Assembly (NCBI GenBank): GCA_016782545.1
Contig: JADHYG010000069.1
Span: forward strand, 1-5,232
Source: Candidatus Microgenomates bacterium
GTDB lineage: Bacteria; Patescibacteria; Microgenomatia; JADHYG01
DNA length: 5,232 nt
Direction: 5' to 3'
Shown: piece after piece, positions 1,217 to 5,203 of the stretch
How the letters are laid out: the number at the start of each line of letters is the position of its first letter
How positions within the stretch are numbered: the stretch's first letter is position 1
Translations under genes and position numbers: made by a program
The notes under the pieces: model-generated
Database searches by the model: none
Told to the model about the DNA's origin: nothing
What the model saw: only the letters and a program-made list of their open reading frames with translations

Positions 1217-1729
1217 ATGAAGATTAGACCCACTCTTTTATCTGCTTGGAACATTATCTATTTGTTCTTGGGTAGTATATTATTTTTTGGCTCACTAATT
1301 GATAAAAACTTAGATTATGGTTCTTTAGTATTAGGAGGCCTAGTAATCATAGGTGTTTTGGCTGGACAGTTAGAGTTTTTAGAGCTGAAGGAGGACAAAT
1401 TAATGTATTGCTTTTTTATTTTCAAAAGAACGATGGATCTAAAAAGGGTGACTTCAATTGTTGAGGACCATTGGAAACCAGGTTTTGGGGCGGAATTTTG
1501 GGTGGGATTAACTCGAAATTTAAAAGCGCTTTTCAGAGTAGGACATAGACTGTATTTTTATTCTGATCAAAAAAAGATAGGCGAGTGGAAATTAATATTT
1601 AGATGGAAATTTGAAGACACCACGTCTTTAATGACAATGATTCAGGAGAGGTTTAATATTGAAGTTAAAAGAGCTAAACGCGACGAGCATCCTCTCTATA
1701 TGGATCGTTTATTTAATCCTAAAAAATGA
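1217..1729 (+). CDS. Small membrane protein, two N-terminal helices, possible PH-like domain
   Basis: I do not recognise a named family for this 170-residue protein. Seen: two hydrophobic segments at about residues 11-28 and 34-52, separated by a short polar turn, giving an N-terminal helical hairpin with the remainder probably cytoplasmic. The rest begins LEFLELKEDKLMYCFFIF and alternates hydrophobic and basic residues like beta strands. Two membrane helices followed by such strands recall bacterial PH-domain membrane proteins, but this is a guess from pattern alone. An aromatic stretch (FGAEFWVGLTRNL) lies around 90-102 and the C-terminus is strongly charged. The ATG has no Shine-Dalgarno; a -10-like box lies 6 bases upstream. 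The last 21 bases overlap the end of the convergent femAB-type gene. The gene is probably real, given its length and membrane pattern; its function is unknown. Confidence 0.75.
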   Translation: MKIRPTLLSAWNIIYLFLGSILFFGSLIDKNLDYGSLVLGGLVIIGVLAGQLEFLELKEDKLMYCFFIFKRTMDLKRVTSIVEDHWKPGFGAEFWVGLTRNLKALFRVGHRLYFYSDQKKIGEWKLIFRWKFEDTTSLMTMIQERFNIEVKRAKRDEHPLYMDRLFNPKK

Positions 1730-2659
1730 CCGCAGATTAAACCGATTAAAAACATAGGGAGTCGGATATTTTATTTCTTTTCCTCCAAATCCTTTTTTAA
1801 ACTTTGTAAATCCTTGCCAGAATTTTGTGGCTTGATGAAAGCGGGGATCATAGATGCCTTGAAAGTCAAAAATCTGACAACCTCTTTTTTTTGAAAGTTT
1901 TAAAGCCTCCCAAACGAGGAGGGTAGGGGCAAATAATTTATTGCCTTGTTTTGTTGAACCTGCCAGCCAATAATGAGCGGTTTTTTGGTGAAAAAGAAGT
2001 AAAATCCCTGCTAAGAAATTACTGTTCGAGCTTGTCGAGAACTTTTTATGTTTAAGAGCTTCTCGACTCGCCCCGCATGTGGGGCTCGCTCGAAGAAGAA
2101 CAGCATTTTTCGGATAAAAAGTCTGCCATAAGGCGTTAATATCTTTTTTAACAAAAAAACTCGGCCAGAGGCCGAAAGGAAAAAATTGTGATGATTTTAA
2201 TTTAATAAATTCTTCAATATTCTTAGATTGGACAACAATCACCTTATTCTTAACAGCGCGGCGAACGGCTCTTCTTTTGGCTTCAGAAAAGTTTTTAAAA
2301 ATCTTTTCTTTTGGTTGGGTTAAGTCAATATGAATTGTTTTTGTTGGTAAATATGGCGACTTGCTTTTTTTATATCTGAATTCTTTAAGTTGTTCTCGTG
2401 TTCTTGTGTTCTCGTGTTCTTGTGATATTGGTTCAATAACGACTTTAAATGCTTGATATTTTTTAGCAATTTTTTCAATCTCATTGAATGGAATTGGATA
2501 TTTTGGTCTTTGAATTTTTATTATTGAGCCAATAATGGGAAAACGGCGAATGAAAATTTGACAATTGTCAACTTTTTCTACAATCCAGCCAATTTTTTTC
2601 ATATATTGGCCGTATTTTTCTGACTGATGAATGTCTTGAGTGGTTCTAAGCCATATCAT
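1709..2659 (-). CDS. FemAB-superfamily aminoacyl/peptidyl transferase, second copy, carrying repeat insertions
   Basis: This 316-residue protein is collinear with the upstream neighbour. Shared landmarks are an IEP near 75, TKTIHIDL (107-113) followed by a basic helix (AKRRAVRRAVKN, 127-138), then HYWLAGST (229-236), LLVWEALKLSKKRGCQIFDF (247-266) and FTKFKKGFGG (284-293). These fit the C-terminal GNAT-like half of FemAB proteins, which add amino acids from aminoacyl-tRNA to the lipid II stem peptide at the cytoplasmic membrane face. The N-terminus is shorter and diverged, and the HPLQSWQWGEF-type motif is absent, so substrate or activity may differ. Two oddities: residues about 79-89 are encoded by an octamer tandem array, and about 189-214 by palindromic repeat DNA, lengthening one loop by about 18 residues without a frameshift. 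No Shine-Dalgarno precedes the ATG. It lies 98 bases downstream of the other femAB gene, possibly cotranscribed, and overlaps the convergent gene by 21 bases. Confidence 0.85.
   Translation of the reverse strand: MIWLRTTQDIHQSEKYGQYMKKIGWIVEKVDNCQIFIRRFPIIGSIIKIQRPKYPIPFNEIEKIAKKYQAFKVVIEPISQEHENTRTREQLKEFRYKKSKSPYLPTKTIHIDLTQPKEKIFKNFSEAKRRAVRRAVKNKVIVVQSKNIEEFIKLKSSQFFPFGLWPSFFVKKDINALWQTFYPKNAVLLRASPTCGASREALKHKKFSTSSNSNFLAGILLLFHQKTAHYWLAGSTKQGNKLFAPTLLVWEALKLSKKRGCQIFDFQGIYDPRFHQATKFWQGFTKFKKGFGGKEIKYPTPYVFNRFNLRSFFRIK
2024..2042. repeat. Imperfect palindrome inside the second femAB gene
   Basis: This 19-base element has GTTC/GAAC ends and two internal TCGA blocks around a CTTGT centre. 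On the coding (minus) strand it contains CGACAAGCTC, a core resembling the AAGCTCAGGA-type repeat at the right end of the window. It is read in frame as part of FSTSSN. Confidence 0.65.
2060..2097. repeat. GC-rich hairpin-forming palindrome inside the second femAB gene
   Basis: Within AT-rich DNA this 38-base block is conspicuously GC-rich. A GCCCC/GGGGC stem (2070-2074 with 2081-2085) closes a six-base loop GCATGT, and an outer stem (TTCTCGA with TCGAAGAA) forms with one bulged base. It is translated in frame, giving RASPTCGASRE, a peptide unlike the rest of the protein. Together with the palindrome 17 bases away it accounts for the loop expansion relative to the neighbouring paralogue. Confidence 0.75.
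2393..2424. repeat. Octamer tandem repeat TTCTYGTG x4 inside the second femAB gene
   Basis: Four adjacent octamers alternate C and T at the fifth base, so the 16-base double unit is repeated exactly. On the coding strand the array is read through all frames as SQEHENTRTREQ, in the variable loop between the IEP motif and the TKTIHIDL strand. That loop has nearly the same length in the neighbouring paralogue, so the array seems to have replaced loop sequence rather than lengthened it. Confidence 0.85.
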
Positions 2660-2740: not shown

Positions 2741-2768
2741 TACTTCAATGATTTAAATCATTGAAGTA
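2741..2768. repeat. Perfect 28-base palindrome at the end of the first femAB gene
   Basis: The 14-base half TACTTCAATGATTT is followed directly by its exact reverse complement, with no spacer. The TGA stop of the upstream femAB gene (2758-2760) lies within it. On the minus strand it is followed by AAAA, not a T run, so it is not a standard intrinsic terminator; it could protect the mRNA 3' end or be a repeat insertion. Confidence 0.85.
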
Positions 2769-3771
2769 TTTGAGATTTGAAGTTAAGCAATTTCCAGCGG
2801 AGATCATTAGAAAAGGTGAAAAGAGGATAGACTTTTGGATTAATAACCAAATCATAAGTACCGATAAACTCAACTAATTGCGGTCCAAAACCCAATTTAA
2901 AACGATGAAAACCAAACCAAGGGTCTTTTGGATCAGGATCAGGTCCAGGTGTGCCCCACATGTCAAAAGTCTGACAATTCATTTTTTTGCCGAATTTAAT
3001 GGCTTCCCAAAAAAGAGCATAAGGCGGCATCATTTTTCGATGCTCTCTGGTTGAGCCGCCGTAAGGATAATAAAGCACATCTTTGAAAGTAAAAAAAACA
3101 TAAGCGGCCAAAACTTTTTCTTTTAATTTGGCCAAAAAAAGATGATACATCCCTGTATGGGCCAATGTTTGCCACATTTTTCGATGATAATCTTGAGTAT
3201 GGGCATAGAATTTTTGTCTTTGGGTGGTTTCCCAAAGTAATTCAAGATAAGCTTCAAAAGCTTCTCTTGAATTATCTTCTATCACTTGGACGCCTTTTTT
3301 TTCTGACAAGCGAATGTTATAGCGGGTTTTGGATTTCATTGAAGAGAGAATTTCTTTTTCTGGTTTGGTTAAATCAAGGCAAAAAGTGTATTTGGTAAAA
3401 AGAGGCCGGCCGATTTGGCAGCCGTTTTCCAAAAGAAATTGATGAAGTTTTTGGTTGGGAGCAAGAATATTGGGTTCCATTTTAATAAAAAGACAATTAT
3501 TTTCTTGGCCGATTTCAGTAAGCGCCTTGAGAATGGTTTTATCTGGAGGAATACCTTTAGGCAGATAACCAATCGTGTAGTTGGTGTAGGGAACAGGATG
3601 GATGGTTAATTGAAAGCCTTTAATCAGAGTGTTTTTTTGAAAAACTCCCAGTCTGACTACTTTCATGCCTGTTTTTTTTCTAAATTCTCCCCATTGCCAG
3701 GATTGCAGGGGGTGAGAAACAGCTTGGTTAAAATCTTTTTTCTGGTCGTAACTTACTTCTTTGATTTTCAT
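2758..3771 (-). CDS. FemAB/FemX-type peptidoglycan bridge aminoacyl transferase
   Basis: This 337-residue protein has the usual FemAB landmarks in order: HPLQSWQWGEFRKKTG (20-35), GYLPKGIPP (68-76), KMEPN (97-101), FCLDLTKPEKEIL (130-142), SMKSKTRYNIRLSEKKGV (144-161), YYPYGGSTREHRKMMPPYAL (234-253), FDMWGTPGP (269-277) and FHRFKLGFG (288-296). Family knowledge: these two-domain GNAT-fold enzymes transfer amino acids from aminoacyl-tRNA to the lipid II stem peptide at the inner membrane face, building cross-bridges (FemX, FemA and FemB in staphylococci). Length fits single-unit FemX-like members without the long coiled-coil arm. The ATG at 3771 is placed directly before the conserved N-terminus; no Shine-Dalgarno is present. 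A 104-base inverted repeat begins 14 bases upstream of the ATG and would fall in the 5' leader if transcription starts further upstream. The amino acid donor and addition position cannot be read from sequence. Confidence 0.93.
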   Translation of the reverse strand: MKIKEVSYDQKKDFNQAVSHPLQSWQWGEFRKKTGMKVVRLGVFQKNTLIKGFQLTIHPVPYTNYTIGYLPKGIPPDKTILKALTEIGQENNCLFIKMEPNILAPNQKLHQFLLENGCQIGRPLFTKYTFCLDLTKPEKEILSSMKSKTRYNIRLSEKKGVQVIEDNSREAFEAYLELLWETTQRQKFYAHTQDYHRKMWQTLAHTGMYHLFLAKLKEKVLAAYVFFTFKDVLYYPYGGSTREHRKMMPPYALFWEAIKFGKKMNCQTFDMWGTPGPDPDPKDPWFGFHRFKLGFGPQLVEFIGTYDLVINPKVYPLFTFSNDLRWKLLNFKSQILQ

Positions 3772-3785
3772 TTATAATTAATGCC

Positions 3786-3889
3786 GAAAATACTGAGGTC
3801 GCCTACGAAAATTTTTGTGTTCGCTGACCGGGTCGAAGTATCGACCCTAATTGCGAACAACAAAAATTTTGTAGACTCCCCGTATTTTC
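3786..3889. repeat. 104-base near-palindromic inverted repeat
   Basis: The outer arms GAAAATAC (3786-3793) and GTATTTTC (3882-3889) are exact. After an imperfectly paired section, CTAC...AAAATTTTTGTG pairs with CAACAAAAATTTTGTAG with single-base bulges, then TTCGC pairs with GCGAA, then across a 5x5 internal loop GGGTCGA pairs with TCGACCC around an AGTA tetraloop. Most bases are paired, so it could form a cruciform or a long RNA hairpin. TTAAT lies just outside both ends (3778-3782 and 3891-3895), a weak candidate target duplication. It encodes nothing recognisable. A MITE-like or palindromic element, or a leader hairpin for the femAB gene, are the main options. Confidence 0.85.
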
Positions 3890-3938
3890 TTTAATTTCAT
3901 AATTTCGCTATTTCTATTTTTTTCTTTCTCACTTCGAA

Positions 3939-4982: not shown

Positions 4983-5014
4983 CACTACAGCACTATGTAG
5001 TGCTGTAGTGTTTT
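4983..5014 (+). terminator. Hairpin with 13-bp perfect arms and short T run, candidate terminator
   Basis: Arms CACTACAGCACTA (4983-4995) and TAGTGCTGTAGTG (4998-5010) are exact reverse complements around TG, followed by TTTT. It lies 64 bases after the stop of the anchored-protein gene, so it may end that transcript. The T run is short and the stem only about half GC, so termination may be weak; it may equally be a dispersed palindrome. Confidence 0.55.
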
Positions 5015-5044
5015 GCAATATGCATTTCAGAGCTTTGTTGCGGC

Positions 5045-5071
5045 GTAGATTAGAGCTTAGCTCTAATCTAC
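5045..5071. repeat. 27-base palindrome, 13-base arms
   Basis: GTAGATTAGAGCT and AGCTCTAATCTAC are exact reverse complements around one T. There is no T run after it. It resembles its neighbours in size and shape but not in sequence. Confidence 0.85.
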
Positions 5072-5104
5072 TTCTAATTTGCTCTCTCATGGTTGAGAAT
5101 TACA

Positions 5105-5125
5105 AACCTAGGACTGTCCTAGGTT
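5105..5125. repeat. 21-base palindrome AACCTAGGAC/GTCCTAGGTT
   Basis: Exact 10-base arms surround one T. Its core CTAGGACTGTCCT (5108-5120) recurs exactly at 5136-5148, a 13-base direct repeat with a 28-base period. Confidence 0.85.
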
Positions 5126-5135
5126 GGGCACGATT

Positions 5136-5203
5136 CTAGGACTGTCCTGAGTTTTAGCCCTTCGGCCCTTCGATAAGACTCAGGACAAGCAAGCTCAGGA
5201 TGA
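5136..5203. repeat. Composite repeat block with alternative pairings
   Basis: The block begins with the second CTAGGACTGTCCT core. GTCCTGAGT (5144-5152) is the exact complement of ACTCAGGAC (5178-5186) across a 25-base loop; TCCTGAG (5145-5151) can instead pair with the second CTCAGGA (5194-5200), or with the AGGA immediately before it. The CCCTTCG...AAGCTCAGGATGA wording resembles a repeat type common in environmental bacterial genomes, from memory. Confidence 0.7.

Follow-up and report, generated by a model that had tools for sequence, protein, structure and literature searches.

The window analysed here, a 5,232-nucleotide stretch of DNA from a Candidatus Microgenomates bacterium, carries a pair of femAB genes on its minus strand (femAB2, Table 1, and femAB1, 2758-3771, both from the ORF list), and femAB2 contains palindromic DNA that is translated as part of the protein. 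Is this DNA a copy of a mobile repeat, and if so, what spreads it? A sequence-only reading of the window had claimed two palindromes inside the gene, at 2024-2097. Palindromic DNA is present and folds strongly, but it is one element with three helices, not two palindromes, and its limits lie outside those claimed (Table 1). As DNA, positions 2020-2105 have a fold z-score of -3.93, and the reverse (coding) strand as RNA has one of -4.37; in both cases 0 of 200 dinucleotide shuffles were as stable. Two pairs of the outer stem are broken in the window copy. Its sequence identifies this stretch as one copy, inserted in frame, of a dispersed palindromic element with ends of the form W-TA-TTGTTCGAG...CTCGAAGAA-TA-W. 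An Rfam search of the window gave no family above cut-off; one tmRNA match at 3848-3907 lay far under its Rfam cut-off.

Table 1. Positions of the element, its parts and its host gene in the window. R1 is a covariance model built from ten full copies; A3 is the ten-copy alignment.
Feature	Positions	Strand	Basis
Palindromic element copy, in frame in femAB2	2019..2100	- (strand of gene; R1 reads + strand)	R1 88 bits, E 6.7e-29 (the copy is one of the ten used to build R1); in-frame translation
Outer stem 5' arm, TTACTGTTCGAGC	2019..2031	+	Helix 1 of A3, 92.5% of cells paired, 10 copies
Outer stem 3' arm, GCTCGAAGAAGAA	2088..2100	+	Helix 1 of A3, 92.5% of cells paired
Hairpin 1 5' arm, GTCGAGAA	2034..2041	+	Helix 2, 92.5% of cells paired
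Hairpin 1 3' arm, TTCTCGAC	2060..2067	+	Helix 2
Spacer between the two halves	2042..2059	+	Same place carries a GIY-YIG nuclease gene in longer copies elsewhere
Hairpin 2 5' arm, sequence variable among copies	2070..2074	+	Helix 3: 6/6 pairs with two-sided change in at least 1 of 10 copies
Hairpin 2 3' arm	2081..2085	+	Helix 3: 6/6 pairs with two-sided change in at least 1 of 10 copies
femAB2, host gene, FemAB/GNAT fold	1709..2659	-	PF02388 E 1.9e-15; AlphaFold2 model

The femAB2 ORF encodes 316 residues and, as the earlier reading had it, remains open through the whole element, which contributes VLLRASPTCGASREALKHKKFSTSSNSN (residues 187-214); conserved FemAB sequence resumes directly afterwards. 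In an AlphaFold2 model of the protein (mean pLDDT 90.8), the insert occupies a beta-hairpin loop between strands 186-193 and 217-224. It contains a predicted helix (197-205) and a stretch of low confidence, its three 10-residue blocks having mean pLDDT values of 76, 55 and 85. The same reading had put the loop at about 18 residues longer than that of the paralogue. Inspection by eye agrees (the paralogue reads LFLA-KLKEKV-LAAY), but the BLASTP alignment of the two proteins, which are 22% identical, has no gap at this place. Loop length varies within the FemAB family.

Other repeats are present in the window. A short tandem repeat, TGTTCTCG/TGTTCTTG, at 2391-2430 is translated in frame as HENTRTRE in another femAB2 loop, which is also highly variable among homologues. 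By eye, further palindromes occur in the spacers at 2660-2768, 3780-3895, 4985-5015, 5045-5075 and 5100-5190; some are short perfect hairpins, and others are of a TTCTGAACTTGATTCAGAATC...AGATCCTGAA..TTCAGGATGAC type.

When the 86-base stretch was used as a BLAST query against 18 related genomes, 15 of them gave matches at E <= 10, mostly weak; a Gottesmanbacteria genome (G010) gave 11, 8 of them at E <= 0.001. Ten full copies align as one three-helix structure, consisting of an outer stem TTATTGTTCGAGC/GCTCGAAGAATAA, hairpin 1 (TCGAGAA/TTCTCGA) and then hairpin 2. The outer stem spans 13 positions with one mismatch and provides terminal inverted repeats which, like the sharp ends, are as in a MITE, while two TTCGAG..CGAGAA units in opposite orientation form an inverted pair of imperfect palindromes, as in a REPIN. 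Hairpin 2 differs in sequence from copy to copy with its pairing mostly retained (84.9% of cells). Across the ten copies, two-sided change is seen in 17 cells (shuffles, 7.1), with a covariation score of 0.168 (shuffles, 0.068); by each measure 0 of 500 shuffles were as high. The number of pairs with two-sided change, 6, is unexceptional, being reached by 151 of the 500. When partner columns were slid by 1-3 positions, pairing dropped from 90.9% to under 50%.

At E <= 0.001, R1 detected the family in 55 of 373 genomes of the class and in 38 of 379 genomes of a phylum-wide draw; copy numbers are lower bounds, at most 11 candidates having been scored per genome. The exact ends, TATTSTTCGAGC, occur in 12 of 13 genomes, up to 60 times per genome, and the reversed pattern 0-2 times; the thirteenth genome, G692, lacks exact ends, though R1 finds copies there. 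Across 118 copies the element is sharply bounded: every one of the 13 terminal positions carries about 1-2 bits, against 0.04-0.27 bits outside, and the composition of the ends is W-TA-(T/C)TGTTCGAG ... CTCGAAGAA-TA-W, so that TA adjoins each end. A plasmid search with the raw element yielded three records only, at E = 4. Some loci are composite. By eye, another palindrome is nested in the element's spacer at L118 (1059-1176), and copies at L190, L203, L169 and L188 lie between the arms of GTCAT...ATGAC-type palindromes; copies stand as near-identical neighbours in G634 (L370, 360-700) and as composites in G055 (L372, 220-400).

Copies are found in genes as well as in spacers. A first set comprised the 75 best-scoring copies, including the 10 training copies, and a second comprised 43 copies in 40 newly fetched regions. 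Taken together, 41 of 118 copies lie inside ORFs, 39 of them in one orientation and 34 in one frame, and 77 lie outside. In the first set, where a copy counted as genic if its ORF extended for 40 codons or more ahead of it and 30 or more beyond it, 35 of 75 (47%) were genic; 34 of these have the window's orientation, and 29 share one entry phase, giving a peptide of the form YSSSE...ESRS...SSRQARTI or ...FSTSSNN. The window copy uses another phase, common to 2 of the 35. The genic share was lower in the second set, at 6 of 43 (14%), 5 of the 6 having the same orientation and phase and the sixth lying in sense. Copies are not all independent, as L154 and L170 appear to share both gene and site.

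Host genes are diverse and conserved. Among the 34 hosts of the first set other than the window's, Pfam matches at E <= 0.001 were obtained for 31, and a curated cut-off is passed by 28. They include UvrA twice, ribosomal protein L1 twice, carbamoyl phosphate synthase (carB), a class I tRNA synthetase, TatD, Lgt, QueA, DHFR and a P-type ATPase, among others. In CarB, TatD, UvrA and DHFR proteins with solved structures, the site of the insert has about 20, 25, 17 and 10 fewer residues, respectively. The element is, in other words, a palindromic repeat dispersed over genes and spacers, inserted in frame in conserved genes and absent from their homologues, which are the hallmarks of Rickettsia palindromic elements (RPE). 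From the copies compared, we regard the element and its in-frame spread as firmly shown. One of the L1 genes (L204, 2-769) contains further peptides near its N-terminus, VIASKAKQSQ and LPAGKAGT, which we take to resemble other translated palindromes.

Copies outside genes that lie between co-directional genes were oriented 15 one way and 12 the other in the first set, and therefore insertion itself seems unbiased in orientation. Stop codons were considered as the cause of the genic bias and rejected: in non-genic copies, stops close the sense frames about as often as the antisense ones. Of the six frames, the one read in genes is the most hydrophilic even in the 77 non-genic copies (GRAVY -0.82, versus -0.13 to -0.50 for the others), and in genic copies it is more hydrophilic still (-1.32). 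That this property is present outside genes as well suggests a tolerance filter. Given the hydrophilic frame, the lack of a clear orientation bias outside genes and the failure of stops to account for it, we infer that selection lets mainly hydrophilic loop peptides survive.

A TA target duplication was also considered as the rule that keeps the frame, and was set aside. TA is found at both ends of the element across the 118 copies, but genic copies vary in their length modulo 3: remainders of 2, 0 and 1 were seen in 19, 11 and 5 of the 35 genic copies of the first set, and in 1, 4 and 1 of the 6 in the second. We thus found no clean target-duplication rule.

Named homologues of the window's FemAB protein belong to Candidatus Gottesmanbacteria and other Microgenomates. 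The closest, P0002, shares 79.9% identity with it outside the loop; its own loop is short, with no insert, the window protein being about 16 residues longer between the two strands. P0003 and P0006 are 93.2% identical outside the loop; P0003 has the element's peptide signature and P0006 a different insert. Because P0002 has no insert and P0003 and P0006 differ in theirs, the femAB loop is an insertion hotspot. The sequence-only reading is supported here: the same element recurs in genes and spacers of related genomes with the frame kept, and the case that would have spoken against it, a peptide common to all close relatives with no related palindrome elsewhere, does not apply, the closest homologue having no insert.

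The element was judged from the peptide rather than the DNA in P0003, P0004, P0005 and P0010. In a FemAB tree built without the loop, the five element-bearing proteins all fall in one clade of 12 (support 95/96), in which the window pairs with P0002 (100/100). Counting by hand with unlabelled rows included, at least 5 gains or losses are needed; a tool count without these rows gave 2 changes for the element label, with 85 of 500 shuffles as low. In 10 of 44 FemAB loci, the window among them, no part of the gene folds as stably as the loop, and the peptides of those 10 loops point to several different palindromes. Among orthologues of QueA and the P-type ATPase, too, the loop is short in some relatives and in others holds different inserts. 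The fold-energy signal is weaker outside FemAB, the loop being most stable in 6 of 29 QueA and 1 of 30 P-type ATPase genes.

A candidate for the enzyme that spreads the element comes from longer copies, a form that the sequence-only reading had not anticipated. In one of them (G634), the spacer between the two halves holds an ORF of 109 residues from the first TTG, or 92 from an inner ATG, that matches the GIY-YIG family (PF01541, E 6.3e-18). PF01541 matches are present in 13 of 13 genomes tested, most of them in open frames of fewer than 175 residues. Mutually pairing flanks, at a local complementarity score of at least 24, surround 14 of the 67 small GIY-YIG genes whose flanks were available, while random placements gave 10 of 1788 and other small ORFs 3 of 346; this score replaced duplex energy, which failed to separate genes from controls. 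An earlier count based on the longest exact complementary match had given 3 of 33 genes at 13 bases or more, versus 1% of controls.

Inspection by eye gave 21 of these genes a palindrome label: 4 are inside TTCGA elements (L416 on the basis of its downstream half), 4 are inside GTCATTGCGAG palindromes, and 13 are within or next to other GTCAT...ATGAC palindromes. In a nuclease tree of 95 columns, whose bootstrap had not settled, the 21 labelled genes all belong to a single clade of 26 (99/91) and the 4 TTCGA nucleases form one clade within the tree (100/98); a single origin of the GTCATTGCGAG group is unsupported (60/0). The three labels require 2 changes, the minimum, against 7.4 in shuffles, of which 0 of 200 were as low. 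Among the sequences compared, the tree shows that nuclease type tracks palindrome type. Of the 5 unlabelled genes in the clade of 26, 4 lie, by eye, beside GTCAT-type palindromes and 1 does not. The GIY-YIG motif residues Tyr-Ile, Tyr.Gly, Arg, His and Glu are each conserved in 90% or more of the 26 palindrome-associated proteins; some of these residues we take to be catalytic. Several GIY-YIG genes outside palindromes (L405, L383, L398, L428, L421) are, by eye, in or beside tRNA-like sequence, partly with repeated tRNA pieces on both sides.

With the G634 nuclease as query, 147 of the 373 class genomes matched at E <= 1e-13, and 16 exceeded 82 bits. Under a lenient pattern, these 16 TTCGA-type genes, two of which (G360, G168) were already among the four labelled ones, have half-elements on both sides in 13 cases and on at least one side in all 16, whereas the next-best 14 nucleases have them on both sides in none and on at least one side in 1. 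For one of the 16, L474, there is no convincing half-element, and its single match is doubtful because the gene adjoins a tRNA-like stretch. Under a strict pattern, with L382 and L408 added, 11 of 18 genes had halves on both sides in one orientation and 1 (L408) in the opposite one, against 0 of the 14 next-best nucleases and 3 of 710 random places. In elements with both halves the nuclease gene is thus oriented 11 to 1, and the halves around it have the same end motifs as the gene-less element. Genomes with a TTCGA-type nuclease were element-positive in 11 of 16 cases, as compared with 44 of 357 others (P 6.9e-7; two draws of 373 were taken as the same genomes from their agreeing handles). 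Conversely, only 11 of the 55 element-positive genomes have a TTCGA-type nuclease above 82 bits.

A similar pairing is seen on plasmids. Homologues of the nuclease occur in 34 plasmid records; of the 15 that we examined, 5 have the gene between complementary flanks (score of at least 36, reached by 1 of 753 random placements), in Azospirillum, Neorhizobium, Novosphingobium, Methylobacterium and Sinorhizobium meliloti. The other 10 lack paired flanks, and in 3 of these the gene frame was misjudged, running to the end of the locus in L451 and L458 and stopping early in L452.

As an association, the link between nuclease and palindrome is strong; we infer a mobiliser role, a cutting site, a copying step and target duplication. 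The GIY-YIG family gene of the longer copies probably drives their spread, and we think it quite likely that the window's element is the non-autonomous partner of this nuclease-encoding palindromic element, moved in trans, its survivors translated as loops. The nuclease would cut or nick DNA at AT-rich WTAW targets or at hairpins, and the break would then be repaired with the palindrome copied in. The nuclease would act in trans on short copies that lack its gene. Copies would land in either orientation. Those that kept the frame, had no stops and placed a hydrophilic, Ser/Arg-rich peptide in a surface loop would survive; others would be purged from genes. The window copy may be one such survivor, in the FemAB beta-hairpin loop.

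Alternatively, the palindrome could be moved by another transposase or one of the RAYT (HuH) type, with GIY-YIG genes merely homing into palindromes as targets. Stand-alone GIY-YIG genes are known homing endonucleases, homing would likewise tie a nuclease clade to a palindrome type, and RAYT genes (PF01797) are present in 29 of 32 genomes tested. They are rarely near the element, however, and we rejected RAYT as the mobiliser: R1 found the element in 1 of 20 RAYT loci, and element units were present in 3 of 40, a sample in which at least 4 genes were fetched twice and one stretch reached a known copy. Several RAYT genes are flanked by other hairpins (in 3 of 6 loci checked, short hairpins lie on both sides). 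The nuclease gene, moreover, occupies the same place, the spacer between the halves, and mostly in one orientation. We consider this alternative unlikely. Three RAYT-type Y1 transposase genes (L232, L236, L245) have short hairpins of their own, for example GCTCAACCCC/GGGGTTGAGC, and apparently belong to a separate REP system.

Two further explanations bear on why the element persists and whether it is real. It might be kept for a function in RNA or DNA, as a terminator, mRNA stabiliser or binding site, its presence in genes being incidental; this would fit the retained pairing of hairpin 2 and the excess of copies outside ORFs. A functional role of this kind seems very improbable given the near-uniform orientation of genic copies, set against the even split in spacers, and given orthologous loops that have other inserts or none. 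The genomes named here are nearly all metagenome assemblies, and errors of assembly or binning could in principle create such patterns, but we see scarcely any likelihood of this, as frames are kept in conserved genes, the element recurs across separate assemblies, and nested nuclease genes also occur in plasmid records described as complete. That an ordinary fast-evolving loop, variable in length as FemAB loops are, should have acquired palindromes by chance is practically inconceivable, being contradicted by dispersed copies of the same DNA element, with sharp ends, in unrelated genes and spacers.

Returning to mobilisation by the GIY-YIG nuclease, we lean slightly towards a broader proposal, in which a broad class of palindromic repeats in bacteria would owe its mobility to single-domain GIY-YIG nucleases, as the mobilisers missing so far. 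Each nuclease subclade would have its own palindrome family (TTCGAG and the CGTC-REP-like GTCAT...ATGAC in Patescibacteria, with similar ones in Proteobacteria), and gene-less forms would be non-autonomous, spreading even through essential genes as translated loops. What is new here is the longer, nuclease-bearing copies and, with them, a candidate enzyme for protein-coding palindromes. The top-ranked results of our literature searches, which included few subscription papers, contained no report of protein-coding palindromes in Patescibacteria, of GIY-YIG genes inside palindromic repeats or of this element family. Should the nuclease link hold, the spread of such repeats would have an enzyme that can be put to the test, and there would be a natural experiment showing at which sites proteins accept extra sequence. 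Unusual peptides inserted in Patescibacterial proteins, ribosomal protein L1 and UvrA among them, would be accounted for as well; such peptides matter for annotation and phylogeny.

Protein-coding palindromes have been a puzzle since they were first reported, in Rickettsia in 2000 (cited in the consulted part of PMC10969869). RPEs, of 105-146 bp, are described in the consulted parts of two reports as lying in frame in unrelated conserved genes and also in spacers (PMC2229807, PMC10969869), which bears out the precedent that had been named for the window's repeat; an excerpt on Wolbachia palindromic elements describes these as likewise dispersed and in frame in genes (PMC4224334). The present element resembles both, as far as those excerpts describe them, in being a dispersed palindrome found in frame in unrelated conserved genes and also in spacers. 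It differs in its phylum, its three helices, its variable third arm and its nuclease-bearing forms.

Intragenic REPs of the GTAG and CGTC superfamilies are short palindromes, often inverted dimers, some of which lie in coding regions of several species, including uvrA and other repair genes; in the consulted parts of the 2013 survey, the phyla listed exclude Patescibacteria, CGTC elements are apparently without a dedicated transposase, and no RAYT or other IS200 gene is flanked by CGTC units (PMC3733652). Our element, too, is a short palindrome and an inverted pair found in coding regions including uvrA, to judge by what those parts describe, but in the 118 copies neither a GTAG nor a CGTC tetranucleotide stands at its ends. 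By eye, it is the GTCAT...ATGAC palindromes around related nucleases that resemble the CGTC type.

In REPIN/RAYT systems, an inverted pair of imperfect palindromes is present in many copies and is thought to be spread by a dedicated nuclease. The present element is likewise a many-copy inverted pair of imperfect palindromes, but its associated enzyme is a GIY-YIG protein encoded inside the element, whereas that of REPINs is a HuH RAYT encoded beside it. In stand-alone GIY-YIG homing endonucleases, a single-domain protein is the only gene of a small selfish element. GIY-YIG proteins are also described, in the consulted part of one report, in non-intron insertions within rRNA genes of these bacteria (PMC11270868). 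Unlike stand-alone homing endonuclease genes, those described here were seen with no intron or intein and are framed by palindromic halves, and these halves also occur gene-less in many copies.
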